Shown piece by piece: positions 30,701-39,849 of a stretch of 53,893 bases of DNA. Both the position numbers and the translations under genes were made by a program. Below the pieces are notes generated by a model. That model saw only the letters and a list, made by a program, of their open reading frames with translations, had not been told where the DNA came from and made no database searches. The stretch is from Ignavibacteria bacterium (GTDB lineage Bacteria; Bacteroidota; Ignavibacteria; Kapaibacteriales; UBA961): contig CANLII010000014.1 of assembly GCA_947491315.1 (NCBI GenBank), positions 1 through 53,893 on the forward strand, given 5' to 3'. The first letter of the stretch is position 1, and every line of letters starts with the position of its first letter.

Positions 30701-30927
30701 TGGATATTGGAACTGCATGGAGTGATACTGTTTCATGGAATCTTGCGCAAAGCGGAGATTATGCCCGTTTTCGTTATCCGGATTCCGGTGATTTGATGAT
30801 GAGCATGGGTGTGGGCATTCGATCATTTCTCTTTGGATTGCCGATTCGTGTTGACATCGCTTGGAGGAATGAACATCTTGGTTGGTCGGTGCCACAATGG
30901 CTTTTCTCTCTCGGTGGTGATTTCTAA
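27772..30927 (+). CDS. Peptidase MA-like / TolB-type propeller / outer-membrane barrel fusion protein
   Basis: A 1051-residue exported protein. A signal peptide (about 1-25, ending MHAQQ) leads to a gluzincin peptidase-like domain: HHELVH gives HExxH (His138, Glu139, His142), and WMNEGFAEY supplies the third ligand Glu172, as in M1-type enzymes. Residues about 290-590 are WD40-like PD40/TolB repeats, seen as recurring SPDG/SPNG and IAFVG/LAFIS units. Residues about 700-1051 resemble a D15/Omp85-like outer-membrane barrel, rich in alternating aromatic strands. Such composite proteins occur in Bacteroidota relatives, function unknown. A surface or periplasmic protease tethered to the outer membrane is the plain reading. 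Its end overlaps the CapA-like gene by 4 bases. Confidence 0.85.
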   Translation: MFYRISVFSIMLCALLAWEFPMHAQQFGKNKVQYRDFSWKFIKTKHFDIYFHEEGEYLARYAGIHAERALASIQNRLKYSISKRISLIVYNSHNDFQQTNVVGEFMPEGVGGVTELFKNRVTLPFEGRYDQFRHVIHHELVHAVINDMFYGGSVQSMISNNIRTELPLWMNEGFAEYEGNGGYDTKTDMFMRDIALSEYVKGFDNLTGYYAYRGGQAFYWYVAEKYGERKIGELLNRLRASGTLENAFKGSFGKSVEDFSEEWVREMKKKYLPDLEKFENLDDMAIRITNHKKDQSFYNSSPALSPSGDSLAFISNRDGQFGVFLMQLNAKVKEPIELISSGRAVDFEELNILTPGISWSPNGKKIAISAKSGGEDALYIVDVQSGDYVKHEFGIKTVTSAIWSPDGASIAFVGSVAEQMDIWIFDVKTGSISRVTDDVFSDAHPVWSPDSRMIYFVSDRGDYVNGAFKAEDFNMWKHDERISDIYQIDLETGLMGRLTFDPTSDKTSLAVTNNGSSLVFVSDNNGIGNLYELQLESAKLIPRTNALNGITQLSMSMDGSTLVFTSQNNGGYDLFQMRYPLERRAYDSLPLTKFMMSKRESGANTVSNQDIVQYSPPQEIKGYGQGIEIEFSRQQLIQPNQDIARYQQEELSSPILGIVRAKMEEEIADPMKTPAQEYKIAFSNDVILANAGVNTFWGYQGVAQMLFSDLLGDHQIYVQANLFFDIRNSNFLISYSYLPNIIDWQITANHNVGYGLVRSDNAPYDYFYRFRNYGIGGIASLPTSRFRRFELGMSYMRLTKENIEFPQEPITSRDMIVAQTGLVYDNTLPGWYGPNRGTRYSMSLQAAPRLQESGLGLAVLDMDFRQYFTLTENFLFLALRGAGGIGTSTNPNQQFFFLGGTDNWINRSFARGTLPFRSPEDFAFLNYVLPLRGWDVNERFGRQYVMMNAELRFPLFTALLAGPIPVLFQAFQGSLFMDIGTAWSDTVSWNLAQSGDYARFRYPDSGDLMMSMGVGIRSFLFGLPIRVDIAWRNEHLGWSVPQWLFSLGGDF

Positions 30928-32258
30928 AAGTTTTCTTCTTTCAGAATTGAATCTCGTATGATTTCTCTTTCCTTCGAAGATGCGATGTCAGGTTCCTTTG
31001 TTGATCGCATGAATGTGTATACAGGTTTTGTTTGAATCAGGCGACCATTATAAAAAGCACATTGCAGAAAAAATGCTCTTCGAACTTCAGGTGTATAGGT
31101 TTGATCAAAGAGAAAATTTCCCGTTCCATAAAATAGCATCTTTCCTTTATGCATACCGATCTCTTGTACGACATGTGCCTGTGAACCAATGAGAATATCC
31201 GCTCCATAATCAATCAATCTTTTTGAAATTGTTCTCTGTGCAGTATGCGGTGTATATCCATCCACTTCACTGAATTGCACGCAAGCGATGATTGTATTGA
31301 TGCCTGCTTTTCTTAATGAATCAATCATGGATTTTGCTTTTGCATCTGAATATCGATTGGCTCCCGGCCCAATATCCGCGCATTCACCGAGGGGACATCG
31401 TTCATTGAATCCAATCCATGCGATGCGAGTGGAATCTTTGAGTGTAAGTATGAGTGGTGAATATGCCTCATTGGAATTCGCTCCACCACCGAAGTATTTC
31501 ATATCATTTTGTTTATACCAATTCAATGCCTTGAGATATGGTGGGATGCCACGATCCAAATTATGATTGCCGGTAAGCTCAATGATATTTGCTCGCAAGG
31601 CTTTGAGCACATCCATGTGTATTGTTTTCGTGAGAAAGGAGAGTCGCATTCCGGTATAAGAACAAGTATCGTCAATTGATACTTCATTGCTAATATGTAC
31701 AAGTTCCGATGATGCAAAGTATGGCTTGATGTATTGGATATACTTCTCAATTGGATTCTTGTCGAGATAGATTCCCGTGGAGCGCGTCAGAGCAGTCACG
31801 CCTGTGTGAATATATGTCGTGATATGCTTCTCGAATGAAAAAGCATGTTTTGATTTCAAGTGGAGTGGATAGGTTGTTGGATTCGTGAAATAATCCATGG
31901 AATCAATTGCAAGTGGAAGGAATCGATTGGAAAGAGAGTCAATACTCATGAGAATAAGACCATTTCGAGAGCGATCATTCAAGTCTATCAATATTTGGAT
32001 TTTGGGATTTGAGATATTCCAATTTGATTCCACGAAATCTCGAATATCACTTGTGATAGCGATTCTGCCGGACTTCACACCTTGAATTATCTCATTCATG
32101 CTAATAGAAGTCTGATCTTGTAGATATGTTCCCACGATGAAAAGTGGGATGCTATCATTGAGCGAATTTTGCTCGACAACTTTCTTAGTTTTCTCTCGTT
32201 CCTTTCCTGTACAAGATAGCAATTGACTGAATAGTATAATGCAGACAAGAATATGCAT
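30924..32258 (-). CDS. CapA-family (metallophosphatase-like) lipoprotein
   Basis: A 444-residue protein. A short signal ends in the lipobox LLSC (Cys16). After a 100-150 residue N-terminal part comes the PGA_cap/CapA domain, a calcineurin-like fold: ELTGNHNLDRG is the metal-binding NHxxD block, IGSQAHVVQEI the late His block and YGTGNFLFDQ the family end signature. CapA takes part in poly-gamma-glutamate export in Bacillus, but most homologues have no known role. It lies 51 bases after the DUF1566 gene and may be the last gene of the multicopper oxidase cluster; it lacks a T9SS-type tail. Confidence 0.82.
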   Translation of the reverse strand: MHILVCIILFSQLLSCTGKEREKTKKVVEQNSLNDSIPLFIVGTYLQDQTSISMNEIIQGVKSGRIAITSDIRDFVESNWNISNPKIQILIDLNDRSRNGLILMSIDSLSNRFLPLAIDSMDYFTNPTTYPLHLKSKHAFSFEKHITTYIHTGVTALTRSTGIYLDKNPIEKYIQYIKPYFASSELVHISNEVSIDDTCSYTGMRLSFLTKTIHMDVLKALRANIIELTGNHNLDRGIPPYLKALNWYKQNDMKYFGGGANSNEAYSPLILTLKDSTRIAWIGFNERCPLGECADIGPGANRYSDAKAKSMIDSLRKAGINTIIACVQFSEVDGYTPHTAQRTISKRLIDYGADILIGSQAHVVQEIGMHKGKMLFYGTGNFLFDQTYTPEVRRAFFLQCAFYNGRLIQTKPVYTFMRSTKEPDIASSKEREIIRDSILKEENF

Positions 32259-32309: not shown

Positions 32310-33491
32310 TTAGGGAGCAATGATAGCTGTATAAGTTTGGATTGTAGTTCCATCTTTCAGCTGAATGAAATATATCCCCGAAGATAATATAGGACTATGC
32401 CATTCATGGGATTGGTTGCTTGCAGTAAGAATACGATTGCCGAGTATATCAAAGACATCAATAGAGTTCTGCTTATGATTAACATTCACTGAAATGACAT
32501 TATTATGTGTATACATCGCCGATTCTGGTGAACTTTCATCAATAGCACTTATCGATTGAGCATTTCTTACCATAATCACTTTCAATCGTTGTGTTTTTAC
32601 CGCATAGGTTGTGATACCATAGCGTGAATCCATATACCATGCTTTATCATTTTGATTTAACAAGGTTGTTGATGACCAATACATCGTATTTGCACTTGTG
32701 ATTCCAAATATAGGATGTATCGAAGGTGATGAATGTGCTTGACTTGTCAATGAAAAAAGTTCTTTGATATTTGGCATTCGCCAATCATCATGTGATCCCA
32801 TATTCGACTGTTCGGAAAATTGCAAGGCTTGCTCCCATGTTATGCTGTCGGGGGAAGGTGTTGCAAACCATTCGAGATTTGTTCGTTTATCAATAATGCT
32901 TCCATACATTGTTCGAACATGGACTTCCGATAGAATTTCGGGTGCACTTGCATCACGGATAATTCTCGCATGTATTTTATTTGTTCCACCTGCCGAGATT
33001 GTTTCCTTTTTCAAATGATTGCCGATACCTCCGCCTGCATTGGTGACCCATATTTTAGAAGCATCATTGTATTGAGGAAGATTTGTCCACCAATATTCTG
33101 CAGTTGAAGGAGCAAATGCGGTGAGATCAAGTGGAGGTCTGTTTTTACTCAGCAAAGTGATGGAATATGCTTCGAGAGGATTCGGCAAGCGCCAGTCCGT
33201 GAAGCCACCCAATGTAGATGTATCGGCATAGACAATTGCTTGTTCATAAGTCATTTCACCTGCATCAGCTTTTTGCCATTGCAATCCTGTCACTTTATCC
33301 AATACAATTCCATTATTCATATCAGAATAATTCGGAGGATAAATGGTATAATCTGCATCTTCACCGAATACATTCGTATATCCCGTGTTTTGTCCTGTAT
33401 CGGGAAAATCTTTCATTGTCTTGAGTAATTCCTGTGATTGCATTGTCAAGACTTGCAATACAAACAAAGTGGTACCAAGTAGTAATTTCAT
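32310..33491 (-). CDS. Exported DUF1566-domain protein with T9SS-type sorting domain
   Basis: A 393-residue protein with a signal peptide (about 1-20). Two DUF1566 (Lcl C-terminal-like) modules follow: the first has DKVTGLQWQKADAGEMTYEQ and GGFTDWRLPNPLEAYS; the second has DKRTNLEWF and SHDDWRMPNIKELFSL. The last 80 residues (VFDILGNRILTASN to SSGIYFIQL) form a type A T9SS C-terminal domain, so the protein should be secreted and anchored at the cell surface. Function of DUF1566 is not established. Its start overlaps the YHYH gene by 4 bases. Confidence 0.85.
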   Translation of the reverse strand: MKLLLGTTLFVLQVLTMQSQELLKTMKDFPDTGQNTGYTNVFGEDADYTIYPPNYSDMNNGIVLDKVTGLQWQKADAGEMTYEQAIVYADTSTLGGFTDWRLPNPLEAYSITLLSKNRPPLDLTAFAPSTAEYWWTNLPQYNDASKIWVTNAGGGIGNHLKKETISAGGTNKIHARIIRDASAPEILSEVHVRTMYGSIIDKRTNLEWFATPSPDSITWEQALQFSEQSNMGSHDDWRMPNIKELFSLTSQAHSSPSIHPIFGITSANTMYWSSTTLLNQNDKAWYMDSRYGITTYAVKTQRLKVIMVRNAQSISAIDESSPESAMYTHNNVISVNVNHKQNSIDVFDILGNRILTASNQSHEWHSPILSSGIYFIQLKDGTTIQTYTAIIAP

Positions 33492-35083
33492 GGATGATGA
33501 TGAATTGTATGCATGGTGGGAATCGGAGAAAGTCTCAAAAAGTACAACCCTTTTTGTAGTCCATTCATGAGCATAACATCGCCTTGTTGTTCTCTGATTA
33601 AGCGTCCTTGCAAATCATAGAGATGTAGAGCAAGAATTGAAAGCATGTCATTGTTTGCAATGACGCGTATGGACTGTCCATCATATCCAATAGTCGGTTG
33701 TTGAAATTCTTCTTGAACAGATGTCGCAGGTATCGTACAAATTGAATTTCCTTTATAAGTATTTACTCTATTGCCATTCTGATCATTGAACACATAGGTA
33801 TAATTTCCTTCCGGTGTCCAAGAGTAATCGAGTGAATATGTTTGACCATTCAATGTATATTTTAATCCATATCCTGAATTAGAGCCATTCGGTGTAAGTG
33901 CAGTTATTGTGGCACCTTTGAGCGGAGTTAAAGCAGGTCTTACTCCTTTGGCAGCGGCTTGTGGAATCAGTTGATAGGTGGAATCTTCAGTGACTTCTCC
34001 TGCGAATGAGGCGATTATATATGGTGCTGAATATGTTCCATGATAATGATATATGCCCGAAGCATCGGCATGCCCATGATGTGAATCAAGTGTTTTCATC
34101 ACAGAACCGTCTGGTTCAAGTGCTCCATATATTGCAAATCCATCAAATGCATAGGCGATGGGTTTTGCTATGGAAGTGAATGCATATAAATGTACCGGTG
34201 CGATATGATAATGATAATCATCAGCTCTACCGGAATGACCGCCAAAATCGTCCAATTGACCATCCAAGTATGCATCGATTCCGGTATTGGTATATGGATT
34301 AAAAATCGGAATGCCATTGATTGCTATGGCAATTGCACCTCTTGTGAAATGTGTTTGATCCACGGGAATCGAGTTTTGAGCCATCACCGGATTTAATGGA
34401 ATGCTCCATGCATTTGCATTGAGATAACATTGTGGAATCGGTAGTTGTTGTTGCCAAGTTGTGATGCCTTTCATCATCTCATGAGTTTTTGCAATACCGA
34501 TTGATCCAACTCTGAAATAAGTATTATCCCATGATGTTACGACTTCGCTTTTGAACGGAATAAATGCCGAGTCAATGGTCAGAGGATTTGTCTGAACCAT
34601 CTTGAGAGCTTCATAACCATTGTTGAATCCATATCCGATTAATCCTATGAAAGCAATTCCTGACATCATGGCTAACTTTGGCGAAAATGACTTTGCAATA
34701 TAGATTCCGGAAAGAGAGATGATACCCAAGAGAATAAGAGTCAACGGAATATCTTGATTGATTTCATGAGAGAGATGTTCCACAGAATTGTGATTTCGGG
34801 GGAGATTGAATCTTCTTATCATTTCATATCTTTTGTCAACAAATTCCCTATCGGATTGACTGAGTGTTGCATATGGAACAGAAAAAAGATCATTCTTTCT
34901 TTCAATATATACCATGCCACTTTTCATGAAAGACAATGCGCCAATTATATGTTTGTTTGCACTCTTCCAGTGTCTCTCATTGGGAGAAGCAGAAGAATGG
35001 GCATGTGAATGTGTATTGTGAGCAAATATACTTGCCGATGAAAGGAGAGTACTAACGATGATGATGAGCGTGAACTGTTTCAT
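33488..35083 (-). CDS. YHYH-domain protein with His-rich ends and a T9SS-like tail
   Basis: A 531-residue protein. A signal peptide (about 1-21) is followed by a His-rich stretch (HNTHSHAHSS). Two hydrophobic segments lie near residues 113-131 and 136-155. The YHYH domain follows: GHSGRADDYHYHIAP, AYAFDGFAIYG, then SHHGHADASGIYHYHGTY. The C-terminal 60-70 residues (LHLYDLQGRLIREQQ, GLYFLRLS) resemble a T9SS sorting domain but end in a His-rich tail. The YHYH family has no firm function; the many His suggest metal binding, fitting the multicopper oxidase in the cluster. It lies 18 bases after the upstream gene and overlaps the next by 4. Confidence 0.85.
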   Translation of the reverse strand: MKQFTLIIIVSTLLSSASIFAHNTHSHAHSSASPNERHWKSANKHIIGALSFMKSGMVYIERKNDLFSVPYATLSQSDREFVDKRYEMIRRFNLPRNHNSVEHLSHEINQDIPLTLILLGIISLSGIYIAKSFSPKLAMMSGIAFIGLIGYGFNNGYEALKMVQTNPLTIDSAFIPFKSEVVTSWDNTYFRVGSIGIAKTHEMMKGITTWQQQLPIPQCYLNANAWSIPLNPVMAQNSIPVDQTHFTRGAIAIAINGIPIFNPYTNTGIDAYLDGQLDDFGGHSGRADDYHYHIAPVHLYAFTSIAKPIAYAFDGFAIYGALEPDGSVMKTLDSHHGHADASGIYHYHGTYSAPYIIASFAGEVTEDSTYQLIPQAAAKGVRPALTPLKGATITALTPNGSNSGYGLKYTLNGQTYSLDYSWTPEGNYTYVFNDQNGNRVNTYKGNSICTIPATSVQEEFQQPTIGYDGQSIRVIANNDMLSILALHLYDLQGRLIREQQGDVMLMNGLQKGLYFLRLSPIPTMHTIHHHP

Positions 35084-35101
35084 GAGATGATTTTGTATTA
35101 T

Positions 35102-36301
35102 TCAATAGGACATGATGCATTGCTTGAAAAACAAGGGAATGCCTTGTGACTCGAGTATCATCAATATAAGGTAATTACCTTTGGGAGGATTCATTGTTAT
35201 TTCTGCGGGAGCATCTCTTTCCAAGCGTGGAATGTTATATGAACCCAGGTTTTCACCGAGTACTGAATATAAATGTAGATTCACATCGGTATGAGAGGTA
35301 GAGCTTGCAATTCTAATATTATGATCTTGTAATTGAATGTCAAAAGAAGGAATCTCATTCATATAGTCAATCGTATTTGTTGTACCATATACTTGTTTGC
35401 GCAGTAAGACAAGATTATCGACCACAAGGTTTGATGTCCAGATAAATTGATTCTTTCCCCACAATGATGTGAAATCTATCCATGCAGGAAAATTTACTCC
35501 AACCGTTGTAGGTGCATATATTAATGCTTTTGGCCAATTTGAATCATCATATCCCGGAATCATCCAATTTGATGGAATCGGGAAGTGAGCCGCATAGCAA
35601 GAATCTCCACAAGAAATATTTCTAAGTAATTGATTAGTATATCGTGTGTTATCCGACTTGATTTGCACTGAATCGGGAGAGGCAATCGGACTGATATAGT
35701 AGACCTGGGCTTTCCATGTTGTGTCGGTTACCGTACCATCACTAAAGACTGCTATCAATCCTCCATCTCCGGCATGATAGGGATTGCCACTATTGTTTTC
35801 AGAACCCAAACCCGGCAATTCTTCCCAATCCACCGCCTGAATGGCAATAGTATATGGTTTCTTGACTCGAAATCTTGCAATCACAGAATTGAAGGGAGTA
35901 AATGGAACGGGATCTGTCCCGATCAGTTGACCATTGATATAGAGTTCGCAATAATTGTCACAAAGAATATAACCTGTGATCACTTCACCATCGGGATCTA
36001 TGGTTGTAACAGACATTTCAGCTAGCTCCACTTGAGACATTGATATTGGAGTGACTGATGCACATTGATTATAAAAATCATGGAAGCGTTTGCCACTAGA
36101 AAACTTGGTATCACTTGGCACAATAATGGTTGTACCATTTGGTCCACTGAAGGACCCAAGCGCAGCCGGACGAGAGCCTTGACATCCTGGTGAAATGTCA
36201 TTGGAGAGAATATTTGCTTTGCCCCTTGTGAAATATGGCTCATCTGCATGAAGAATTGAAAATGAAGAGAGAAGTATGATGAGTAATTGAAACATGTTCA
36301 T
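35102..36301 (-). CDS. Exported beta-rich protein with T9SS sorting domain, unknown function
   Basis: A 399-residue protein with a signal peptide (about 1-19). The middle part (about 95-310) looks like jelly-roll carbohydrate-binding modules, with LYINGQLIGTDPVPF, YTIAIQAVDWEELPG and MIPGYDDSNWPKA resembling galactose-binding-like folds. Four Cys lie in the motifs CDNYC and CGDSC. The last 80 residues are a T9SS-type C-terminal domain (LHLYSVLGENLGSYN, then PKGNYLILMI). No catalytic motif seen. It overlaps the redoxin gene by ATGA and precedes the YHYH gene by 18 bases. Confidence 0.75.
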   Translation of the reverse strand: MNMFQLLIILLSSFSILHADEPYFTRGKANILSNDISPGCQGSRPAALGSFSGPNGTTIIVPSDTKFSSGKRFHDFYNQCASVTPISMSQVELAEMSVTTIDPDGEVITGYILCDNYCELYINGQLIGTDPVPFTPFNSVIARFRVKKPYTIAIQAVDWEELPGLGSENNSGNPYHAGDGGLIAVFSDGTVTDTTWKAQVYYISPIASPDSVQIKSDNTRYTNQLLRNISCGDSCYAAHFPIPSNWMIPGYDDSNWPKALIYAPTTVGVNFPAWIDFTSLWGKNQFIWTSNLVVDNLVLLRKQVYGTTNTIDYMNEIPSFDIQLQDHNIRIASSTSHTDVNLHLYSVLGENLGSYNIPRLERDAPAEITMNPPKGNYLILMILESQGIPLFFKQCIMSY

Positions 36302-36903
36302 GGACTCCGATAGGTAATTTTACAACCAAAGGAACCAATTACTTCCTCAGGAATATTCTGATTGGAAAGAATGGCTTTAGCTGTGATTTCTAAATGTGGA
36401 ATTGCTTTCTCAGGATATTTGCCATTATCATCGATGATGCCTTGATAGACAATCTTCCACTCATTTGCTTTTCTTTGAATGACAAAAACCTGCGGAGTAA
36501 ATGCTGCATTGAATGTCCGCGCAATGCTTTGTGAATGATCTTGAAGATATGGATACACAATGATATCACGAATTACCTTTTTCTTCATTTCTTCCAAGGT
36601 TTCATCTTCATAAAGGATTGAATCCATGGGATTAATAGCAATGAGCGGGATGCCCATTGGAGCATATTCTCGGTAAAAGTCATTCATTCTTTGAATGTAT
36701 AACTCAGCAAAAGGACAATGGTTACAAGTGAATACAATCACAATTGCCTTTGCATCGGGGAATTGATCAAAAGTGAAATACTCACCTCGAGCCATTGGTG
36801 CCGAAAAAGGTGTAATAATTTTACCAATTATCGTTGAATCAATAGCTGAAGCGGGAATATATGCCAAGAAAGACATCAAAAGTGATAAGAAGAATTTTAG
36901 CAT
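36298..36903 (-). CDS. Exported thioredoxin-fold (redoxin/AhpC-like) protein
   Basis: A 201-residue protein with an N-terminal signal peptide (about 1-20). The thioredoxin fold has the active site FTCNHCPFAELYIQRM, a CxxC disulphide site seen in a common redoxin subgroup, followed by INPMDS and a beta strand with AFTPQVFVI containing the cis-Pro. It should be periplasmic, where it may reduce or form disulphides, or act in electron transfer or copper handling. It starts in a 1-base overlap with the multicopper oxidase stop (TAATG) and overlaps the next gene by ATGA. Confidence 0.85.
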   Translation of the reverse strand: MLKFFLSLLMSFLAYIPASAIDSTIIGKIITPFSAPMARGEYFTFDQFPDAKAIVIVFTCNHCPFAELYIQRMNDFYREYAPMGIPLIAINPMDSILYEDETLEEMKKKVIRDIIVYPYLQDHSQSIARTFNAAFTPQVFVIQRKANEWKIVYQGIIDDNGKYPEKAIPHLEITAKAILSNQNIPEEVIGSFGCKITYRSP

Positions 36904-38597
36904 TATTTCACAAATGAACGGATGATCGACAATTTGGATTTCATGTCTATCAACTTCACAGTATAGAATCCTTTTGGCAAGGCACTAATATCAATGGTTG
37001 ATCCTTTCTCAGGTTGAGGTAGCATCATCACGGTTTTTCCATTGACATTTTGAATTGTTGCATAGTAAATATCCATTTCACCTGCATCAATTTGTATGGA
37101 ATGTTCTGCGGGATTTGGAAAAACTCTCACTGATGAAAAGTCATTCACCGCATCTTCTACATTGCTTGGTGGAATGACAACAAATTGTTGCATCATCCCA
37201 TCATCTTCATGATTGGAAAAATGACAATGATACATGAAAGGGTGCAATGGGTCTGCATAATCAGCAAATTTGGCTATGAAGGTCGCAGATTCATTTCTAG
37301 GTAGATATAATACATCTTTCCAACCTGTTTCATGCTGACCGACCGCGGATGCATTTCCATTTCTTTCTATGATATTGAATTGCACATCATGAATATGAAA
37401 TGTATGACCAAATACATTACTATTAGTGATGGTCCATTTTTGCACGCTATTCAACGGAATTGATTTATCAACTCGACTGATATCGAATATTCCTCCGGTG
37501 AAATGGAATGGCATCGGACTATTTGGTACGCCACCCATCACTCGAATATCTTGTGTTCCTGTTACTGCATTTGCATCTATCCCTTGAAAAGGAATGAGTT
37601 TTTCAGGAATTGTCATAATTGGAGCATTGGTTTGTTCACCAAATGTGAAATGCATCATCGGAAAATTCTTGTTGTTCAACAAACTTCCGAATTGTCCATT
37701 CTGACCGGGTTCTCCACCGGGAAAACCAAATGGTTGATTTGCATTATATGCCAATAAGTCCACGCTTTTTCCTAGTTCATCTTTTGAGCAATCAACAAGA
37801 ATTTCATAGCGTTCTCCAACAGCTATGTGCAAGCGTTTTACGGGATATGGTTTATCGCGCAATCCTCCATCTGTTCCGATTACATAGAAGGTTCTATCAT
37901 CACTGAACCCAATATTATAGGAGCGTTCTACTTCTGCATTGAGTATGCGCAAGCGATTCACTTGTCGTGGGAGAGTGAACTCAGCATCATGAACTCCATT
38001 AGCCAAAAGATAATCTCCATATGCTGTATTCTGTACAATAAACTGATTATTGGTTGCATATCTTCTGCTTGTGAAGACCAAAGGAATATCATCGATACCA
38101 TATGTTCTTGGTAGTGGTAATGCAGATTCTTGTTCATCATTGACGATCAGTAATCCACCAATTCCTTTTGAGAGATGTTCGAGTGTCATTTCATGCAAAT
38201 GTGGATGATACCAATAGGTTGCCGCATTATTTGTAATCTTCCAGAAGGGCTTCCAAATGGTACCCGGTGGAATCACTTGATGTGGTCCGCCATCCATAAC
38301 GGCAGGTAAATGCAAGCCATGCCAATGTAATGTTGTGCTATCATTCAAATTGTTAATGACAGTCATTCGAATAGTATCACCTTTATTGACAAATATGGTC
38401 GGACCCCAAAACTGATGTCCATTAATTCCGCCAGTGATTGTCTGATTCCCAGTTCTCAATTGTGCGAATGTATCGACAATTCTCAATGTACATTCAGGAC
38501 CCTTTAAAGCCTCAGGAATTGGTAGTCGATTATAGGTTTGTGCCTGAACAAATACAATTGAACATAGGAATGCACATATTGACAATACATTGATCAT
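36903..38597 (-). CDS. Multicopper oxidase with T9SS sorting domain
   Basis: A 564-residue exported oxidase. Signal peptide about 1-19. All copper-binding blocks are visible: HWHG (91-94), WYHPHLHE (129-136), GHTFHIHD and MYHCHFSNHEDDGMM, the last with the His-Cys-His, His and axial Met of the T1 copper. Length and blocks fit CotA/CueO-like or laccase-type three-domain enzymes, which oxidise phenols, bilirubin-like pigments or metal ions (Cu, Mn, Fe). The last 80 residues (IQNVNGKTVMMLPQ, LPKGFYTVKLID) are a T9SS C-terminal domain, so it should be at the cell surface. First gene of a compact five- to six-gene cluster. Confidence 0.93.
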   Translation of the reverse strand: MINVLSICAFLCSIVFVQAQTYNRLPIPEALKGPECTLRIVDTFAQLRTGNQTITGGINGHQFWGPTIFVNKGDTIRMTVINNLNDSTTLHWHGLHLPAVMDGGPHQVIPPGTIWKPFWKITNNAATYWYHPHLHEMTLEHLSKGIGGLLIVNDEQESALPLPRTYGIDDIPLVFTSRRYATNNQFIVQNTAYGDYLLANGVHDAEFTLPRQVNRLRILNAEVERSYNIGFSDDRTFYVIGTDGGLRDKPYPVKRLHIAVGERYEILVDCSKDELGKSVDLLAYNANQPFGFPGGEPGQNGQFGSLLNNKNFPMMHFTFGEQTNAPIMTIPEKLIPFQGIDANAVTGTQDIRVMGGVPNSPMPFHFTGGIFDISRVDKSIPLNSVQKWTITNSNVFGHTFHIHDVQFNIIERNGNASAVGQHETGWKDVLYLPRNESATFIAKFADYADPLHPFMYHCHFSNHEDDGMMQQFVVIPPSNVEDAVNDFSSVRVFPNPAEHSIQIDAGEMDIYYATIQNVNGKTVMMLPQPEKGSTIDISALPKGFYTVKLIDMKSKLSIIRSFVK

Positions 38598-38670: not shown

Positions 38671-39849
38671 TTAACTTTTTTTGGCTTGCGATAGAAGGTA
38701 TAGAGCAATCACAACAGAAATGCAACCGATGAATGTATAGAGTGTCGTAATGCCGGACATCATGACGATCGGTTGAGCAATCACAGGTGACAAAAATTGT
38801 CCGAGATAGAGTGATGATGTAATCACCCCAACAGATCTTCCGCGAAGTGGTGGTGCCGCAATGCTGATCACCCAGAGTCGCATTGATGGCATGAGAAGTC
38901 CGATTCCTGCCCCTGCAAATAATGCAAAGACTATTGTAATGAAGAAAGTATTTGCAATGGAAAGTCCCAAAAATCCCATTGCGAGCAATGCGAATGCTCT
39001 TCCACCCAGACCAGAAAAATTGTGCAGTCGTTTGAGATATGGCATTGCATAGGATGAAAATCCTCCGGCCAATGTTGCAAGTGAAACCACTGCTCCTGCT
39101 TTTGCCGGTGAATCAATGCCATGGAGTGCAAGAAGAAATGGCAGTTGCGTGGGAATGGCATAGAAAAAGACCATTCCGGCAAATACGATCAATCCGATTC
39201 CTGCAATGTGAATCGGTTTTCCATATTGCATTTCAATTGAAGCGGATTTACCAATATTATTGAGATATGCTTCTCTTTCATGATGCACATCTGGCTCATG
39301 TATGTAGAAATATGCAGGAATGGCAAGAATGAGTGCAAGTGCATACAATGAGAATGGAAAACGCCAACTCATAAGAGTAAGAAATCCTGCGAGGGCAACG
39401 AATATCACACCGCCGAAAGATATGAATGTTCCTTGCAGACCCAGCATTTTATTGCGTTCTTCACCCATATAATAATCTGCTATAAGGGTTTGAGCAGATG
39501 TCATGATTCCGGCAACGCCAAGTCCCAAACATGCTCTTGCGATAATGAAATGTTGCAGACTTTCAAGATAAAGTCCTGTTGTACCCATAATTCCATAGAT
39601 AATGAGCGAGCTAATCAGGAGGATTTTGCGATGTCCTTTATCAATAATCATTCCTGCAATGGGTGCAAAAAATGCAATGATCAAGCTTGGAACGGTGAGC
39701 ATGAGTTTTACGAGAAACTCGGCATTCTCGATAGACTTAAATGCTTCTGCAATTTTGGGTAATGCAGGAGAAATAGCTGATACGGACATCACTGTCAAAC
39801 TACTTGCCATGAGCAAAACGATATTGCTTCTTAATGTGAGTGTATTCAT
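38671..39849 (-). CDS. MFS transporter
   Basis: A 392-residue, twelve-helix major facilitator. The loop between helices 2 and 3 has PIAGMIIDKGHRK, the usual MFS signature region, and the second repeat has GGFSSYAMPYLKRL. The N-terminal half with VSAISPALPKIAEAF resembles DHA1 drug:proton antiporters, but the substrate is not predictable. The start at 39849 is chosen because it overlaps the menA stop (ATGA); an upstream start at 39879 would overlap menA by 34 bases. Confidence 0.88.
   Translation of the reverse strand: MNTLTLRSNIVLLMASSLTVMSVSAISPALPKIAEAFKSIENAEFLVKLMLTVPSLIIAFFAPIAGMIIDKGHRKILLISSLIIYGIMGTTGLYLESLQHFIIARACLGLGVAGIMTSAQTLIADYYMGEERNKMLGLQGTFISFGGVIFVALAGFLTLMSWRFPFSLYALALILAIPAYFYIHEPDVHHEREAYLNNIGKSASIEMQYGKPIHIAGIGLIVFAGMVFFYAIPTQLPFLLALHGIDSPAKAGAVVSLATLAGGFSSYAMPYLKRLHNFSGLGGRAFALLAMGFLGLSIANTFFITIVFALFAGAGIGLLMPSMRLWVISIAAPPLRGRSVGVITSSLYLGQFLSPVIAQPIVMMSGITTLYTFIGCISVVIALYLLSQAKKS

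Follow-up and report, generated by a model that had tools for sequence, protein, structure and literature searches.

We have identified a compact five-gene cassette in which the genes are gained or lost together as one unit, and we consider the chances about even that its role is the handling of copper beyond the inner membrane. Its genes encode a multicopper oxidase (MCO), a redoxin (RDX), a predicted beta-rich protein (BETA), a YHYH-domain protein (YHYH_B) and a DUF1566 protein (LCL). The set divides into modules that are conserved across families, namely MCO-RDX, YHYH_B-LCL and BETA-YHYH_B. Copper handling is the best-supported role because, in other genomes, these modules connect with MbnP/MbnH and further YHYH genes with SCO1; it is suggested by gene context, and the roles given below for individual proteins are likewise predictions.

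Organization and extent of the cassette

The window, the whole 53,893-nucleotide stretch of DNA analyzed here, comes from a genome of 2.3 Mb, in which it constitutes contig C14; a congeneric genome carries the name Candidatus Kapaibacterium. The five genes all lie on the minus strand between positions 32310 and 38597. MCO (36903..38597; 564 aa) is a three-domain multicopper oxidase with a signal peptide and a T9SS type A tail, and RDX (36298..36903; 201 aa) is an exported AhpC/TSA-type redoxin lacking such a tail. BETA (35102..36301; 399 aa) belongs to an unnamed family and is predicted to be beta-rich and exported, with a T9SS-type tail at residues ~318-399. YHYH_B (33488..35083; 531 aa) comprises a signal peptide, an SHD1-like domain, a transmembrane hairpin, a YHYH domain and a T9SS-type tail, and LCL (32310..33491; 393 aa) combines DUF1566/Lcl_C (PF07603) with a T9SS tail. 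Neighboring genes overlap by 1, 4 and 4 bases, with a single 18-base gap. Gene calls, families and spacing thus match the sequence-only reading, which had described five compact minus-strand genes of these types. It had also assigned T9SS-like tails to four of the proteins and a signal peptide to the fifth, and this was borne out: C-terminal sorting domains were recovered in MCO and LCL by profile and in BETA and YHYH_B by predicted structure, while in RDX no T9SS tail was found, only an N-terminal signal-like segment. Scans for promoters and terminators gave matches no commoner than in shuffled sequence.

The limits of the unit are defined by the sister genome G003, where CapA and MFS genes lie 28 bases apart and the five genes are precisely absent between intact flanks. 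Homology between G003 and the window ends at 32161 and restarts at 38705, leaving the segment 32162..38704 without a counterpart. Loss of the cassette in G003 is the simpler reading, since by the identity of its flanks this genome ranks with the closest relatives. CapA and MFS are placed outside the unit because both remain in G003 without the five genes. A CapA-like lipoprotein (30924-32258) had been proposed as a sixth member; this is ruled out by the empty site, and CapA is also missing beside LCL in G001. MFS is excluded as a cassette member by the same site. In G006, the contig ends within MFS and the site is unreadable. All five genes occur in the same order on one contig of G001, and G002, G004 and G005 keep that order as far as their contigs extend, the clusters of G002 and G005 being cut by contig ends. 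Among 198 related genomes, the complete set was seen in the window's genus only. A single-protein scan of genome contigs returned only two close relatives.

Conserved modules among related genomes

Co-occurrence was counted over the 198 related genomes, with bit-score cut-offs for orthologues chosen from the matches listed. The tail portion of profile A1 matches many T9SS tails in the phylum, and BETA was counted only if the match reached the N-terminal part. YHYH_B occurred in 19 genomes and BETA in 15, and orthologues of LCL, MCO and RDX in 15, 17 and 12, respectively. With relatedness ignored, YHYH_B was present in 15/15 genomes with an LCL orthologue (Fisher p = 3e-19), an MCO orthologue was present in 12/12 genomes with an RDX orthologue (p = 1e-15), and BETA and YHYH_B occurred together in 13 genomes (p = 4e-14). 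Of the 15 LCL-orthologue genomes, 14 had YHYH_B and LCL in a common cluster. When genomes were collapsed to genera, in a version of the test that is likewise not tree-aware, 9 of 10 family pairs reached p ~3e-3 or lower, the exception being LCL-RDX (p = 0.085). Co-occurrence beyond chance had been set as the test for the five families; it holds for the modules, and the full set is confined as described above.

MCO and RDX are adjacent in six genera (the window's genus and those of G009, G055, G100, G103 and G193), a tight linkage. Electron supply by the redoxin is the role that had earlier been suggested for it. BETA lies next to YHYH_B or a short distance from it in families f1, f3 and f8, and likewise in one far member of the phylum. 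Arrays of BETA-like paralogues surround YHYH_B in the f8 genomes (L025, L026 and L028). At L106, in the distant genome G329, BETA and YHYH_B adjoin each other, and ahead of them are genes for a TonB-dependent receptor and another YHYH protein as well as two short genes resembling ArsR-type regulators. Paired calcineurin-like T9SS phosphoesterases adjoin YHYH_B at L032, L096, L100 and L104.

Association of YHYH genes with copper proteins

The classic YHYH proteins are here called YHYH_A. Of their 45 gene locations, 21 have MbnP within 6 kb, and some of the others are possibly unlinked through contig ends. The gene order is YHYH_B-LCL-YHYH_A-MbnP-MbnH in G085 and G047. In G051 and G041, MbnP, MbnH, YHYH_A and MCO occur together, followed by a TonB-dependent receptor and, in G051, accompanied by a sulfatase. 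G009 has the order YHYH_A-MCO-RDX-sulfatase, and YHYH_A-MbnH-MbnP is found in G207 and G232, in two families that do not belong to the taxonomic order. Several further YHYH_A loci in the phylum lack this arrangement. WxW was present in every inspected MbnP, and two CxxCH heme motifs in every MbnH except one interrupted by N; the MbnH and MbnP proteins tested scored below NCBIfam cut-offs and are divergent members. The window's genome carries a second YHYH operon on contig C23 (L033) with YHYH_A, MbnH and MbnP, which also encodes a weakly ligand-gated-channel-like protein and a sulfatase with a CSPTR motif. The window's cassette itself contains neither MbnP/MbnH nor HupE.

SCO1/SenC provides a further context. 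Across Bacteroidota, 13 loci carry genes for a short YHYH lipoprotein, a MORN-like protein and SCO1/SenC in this order as a three-gene cluster (L160-164, L166, L168-173 and L175), with the MORN-like gene not recovered in L172. L165 and L174 have the short YHYH gene and the MORN-like gene without SCO1/SenC. The YHYH lipoprotein of L166, L167 and L176 adjoins a ~210 aa protein with an A-H boundary at its N-terminus, which in L167 gave a DUF6702 match just under the cut-off (23.4 versus 24 bits); a DUF6702-like gene also lies beside YHYH in G326. A HupE/UreJ_2 permease is encoded as a separate gene beside YHYH_B in G001, G004 and G100 only. Sulfatases with the CSPTR motif and calcineurin-like phosphoesterases also occur beside YHYH genes. 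A plasmid location for YHYH_A was considered and dropped, with one weak Deinococcus match only.

Features of the encoded proteins

YHYH_B is a divergent member of PF14240, scoring 45.3 bits against a cut-off of 25 over profile positions 2-110 only. Its predicted first mature residue is His22 (codon at 35018..35020, minus strand; all features that follow are on the same strand). All 18 homologues with a complete N-terminus have His at this position, and the residue before it is invariably A, S or G; a simple (-3,-1) cleavage scan included the site in most members and allowed other sites in several. In YHYH_A, the likely signal-peptidase cleavage site is followed by Q (9/9). The YHYH protein had been described as having His-rich ends, of which the conserved first mature histidine stood and the remainder did not. 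Residues 34-89 (34817..34984) form a predicted match to Sla1 SHD1: the predicted structure aligns with 2hbp over 56 residues (Z 8.1, rmsd 2.3), and five of 29 members match PF03983, the best with E 0.0012. A transmembrane hairpin follows at residues ~112-150 (34634..34750), and this hydrophobic element was recovered in nearly all YHYH_B members and is absent in YHYH_A.

The first YHYH motif (residues 290-293; 34205..34216) is invariant in both groups, Y292 excepted, and D278, H283, H291, H293 and D314 are invariant in 29 YHYH_A and YHYH_B sequences, so that the His triad and Asp of the family are in place. A metal site has been predicted in the YHYH family, and a Zn-dependent hydrolase fused to lectins has been proposed (PMC7824862). 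The second YHYH motif (residues 345-348; 34040..34051) is conserved in 19-20 of 20 YHYH_B sequences and absent from YHYH_A. The C-terminal tail resembles the NucA CTD (Z 9.0, rmsd 1.7) and is present in some lineages. For the YHYH core fold, Foldseek found no match at E <= 0.001, and the later structure comparison covered the tail and the SHD1-like part only. Since the transmembrane hairpin is conserved, YHYH_B is probably membrane-tethered rather than simply surface-exported. The pairing of a T9SS-type tail with this hairpin is topologically odd, and the hairpin argues against simple export.

MCO matched Cu-oxidase_3, Cu-oxidase, Cu-oxidase_2 and Por_Secre_tail, the last at 38 bits (Pfam cut-off 27). 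All four copper-ligand motifs are present (HWHG, HPHLH, HTFHIH and HCHFSNHEDDGM), and orthologues keep all or most of them. Bilirubin oxidase and laccases are among its sequence relatives. CueO is a multicopper oxidase with a Met-rich insert; no such insert was found in MCO, residues 285-365 containing five Met in the window protein and 0-3 in orthologues, and MCO scored 340 bits against the NCBIfam CueO equivalog, below the cut-off of 525. RDX belongs to AhpC-TSA, with C60-N-H-C63-P and C194 invariant within the MCO-linked subfamily. In G037, the MCO orthologue and a tyrosinase gene share a four-base overlap (L132:7937-10815), and in G055 an intradiol dioxygenase-like T9SS protein is encoded downstream of MCO-RDX.

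Profile searches gave no significant family match for BETA, and sequence comparison with solved structures gave useful matches to T9SS tails only. In its predicted structure, the tail resembles the CTDs of RemA (Z 9.5) and NucA (Z 9.2), with rmsd 1.8-2.0, and there is a weak resemblance to GH2-type jelly-roll domains. The Cys pairs previously noted in BETA did not prove to be conserved redox features of the family (C114 in 3/15, C118 in 5/15, C231 and C235 in 7/15); the conserved pair is instead C40/C80 (14/14 with a residue there). LCL matched PF07603 and, through its tail, TIGR04183 (33 bits; cut-off 23). A DUF1566-containing Lcl-CTD binds sulfated glycosaminoglycans (PMC11162425), and, with the jelly-roll resemblance of BETA also considered, BETA and LCL might bind glycans or anchor other members.

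Discussion

In the copper-handling reading, the hairpin would hold YHYH_B in the inner membrane, and copper would be bound by the N-terminal His of this protein together with the His/Asp cluster in its YHYH domain. YHYH_B may hand the metal on, in some genomes to the neighboring HupE/UreJ_2 permease. At the cell surface, T9SS-exported MCO would oxidize a small reductant, either Cu(I) or another, with RDX keeping cysteines reduced or helping to metallate MCO. The folds of BETA and LCL are similar to sugar-binding modules, and these two proteins could retain the exported parts within the surface layer. The cassette had previously been interpreted as a surface redox or metal-handling complex. Of this, a unit that handles metal beyond the inner membrane is retained, and copper as the likely metal, suggested by gene neighborhoods, refines that claim; a single surface complex is doubtful and the locations may differ, because of the YHYH_B hairpin and the lack of a T9SS tail on RDX. 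Against copper stand the Zn hydrolase prediction for YHYH, the missing Met-rich insert of MCO and the absence of MbnP/MbnH and HupE from the cassette. HupE/UreJ proteins are also best known for nickel and cobalt, which counts against copper (PMC4284471).

Several known systems can be compared. The surface copper systems MbnP/MbnH (also CorA/CorB and MopE/SACCP) likewise consist of exported copper-related proteins, and MopE/CorA proteins with peroxidase partners offer a precedent (PMC3912023). In related genomes, the genes for MbnP/MbnH directly accompany those for YHYH proteins and an MCO of the window type; they are missing from the window's cassette while present with YHYH_A on contig C23. 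In the anglerases Ang-1/Ang-2 (Nat Commun 2025), an N-terminal-His domain is fused to a HupE/UreJ_2 permease and binds Cu (PMC12537917). YHYH_B would resemble them in its predicted N-terminal His, export and membrane tether, and in three genomes HupE/UreJ_2 adjoins it; unlike the anglerases, it is not fused to a permease, has different domains (SHD1-like, YHYH) and a metal role that is predicted, and the window's cassette has no HupE. CueO-type enzymes are the closest solved relatives of MCO and share all its copper-ligand motifs, whereas MCO lacks the Met-rich insert and has a T9SS tail and a partner redoxin. YHYH_B keeps the His triad and Asp of PF14240, a predicted phage metal hydrolase, but adds the second YHYH motif, the hairpin, the SHD1-like domain and copper-related neighbors.

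Other functions were weighed against the same neighborhoods. MCO could be a laccase that oxidizes phenols or aromatics at the surface, with RDX aiding its maturation, BETA and LCL anchoring it and YHYH_B as an accessory. The missing Met-rich insert, the bilirubin oxidase and laccase relatives, and the tyrosinase and dioxygenase-like genes beside MCO orthologues agree with this, although each of those partners was seen once; nothing ties YHYH_B, BETA and LCL to aromatics, and they are often present without MCO, and the MbnP/MbnH and SCO1 links are left unexplained. Phenol oxidation stays a fair rival for MCO; as an account of the cassette we regard it as unlikely. It is rather improbable that the unit shapes or degrades surface polysaccharide, with YHYH_B as a metal-dependent hydrolase and LCL and BETA binding glycans. 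The lectin-fused Zn hydrolase prediction, the glycosaminoglycan binding of Lcl-CTD, the jelly-roll resemblance of BETA, and the CSPTR sulfatases and calcineurin-like phosphoesterases beside YHYH genes would fit, yet the cassette contains no glycosidase or polysaccharide utilization genes, and the repeated links to MbnP/MbnH, SCO1 and MCO would be unexpected.

The same kind of metal-capture unit might instead serve nickel or cobalt, given HupE/UreJ_2 beside YHYH_B in three genomes and the DUF6702-like gene beside YHYH in G326, a DUF6702 protein having bound Ni with picomolar Kd (PMC12537917). We give this little credence: MCO, SCO1 and MbnP/MbnH are copper proteins, and the lack of HupE in the window's cassette weighs here as well.

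Conclusions

Full-text searches of an open-access paper collection returned no paper tying the YHYH family to copper. We tentatively propose, at somewhat less than even confidence, that YHYH proteins are general extracytoplasmic copper proteins in Bacteroidota that partner MbnP/MbnH, SCO1 or multicopper oxidases, and that YHYH_B is a new membrane-tethered copper-capture protein with an N-terminal histidine. Three separate contexts (MbnP/MbnH, SCO1 and multicopper oxidase) converge on one testable function for the uncharacterized YHYH family. If true, the Bacteroidota would gain a copper system linked to T9SS along with a new extracytoplasmic protein for copper capture.
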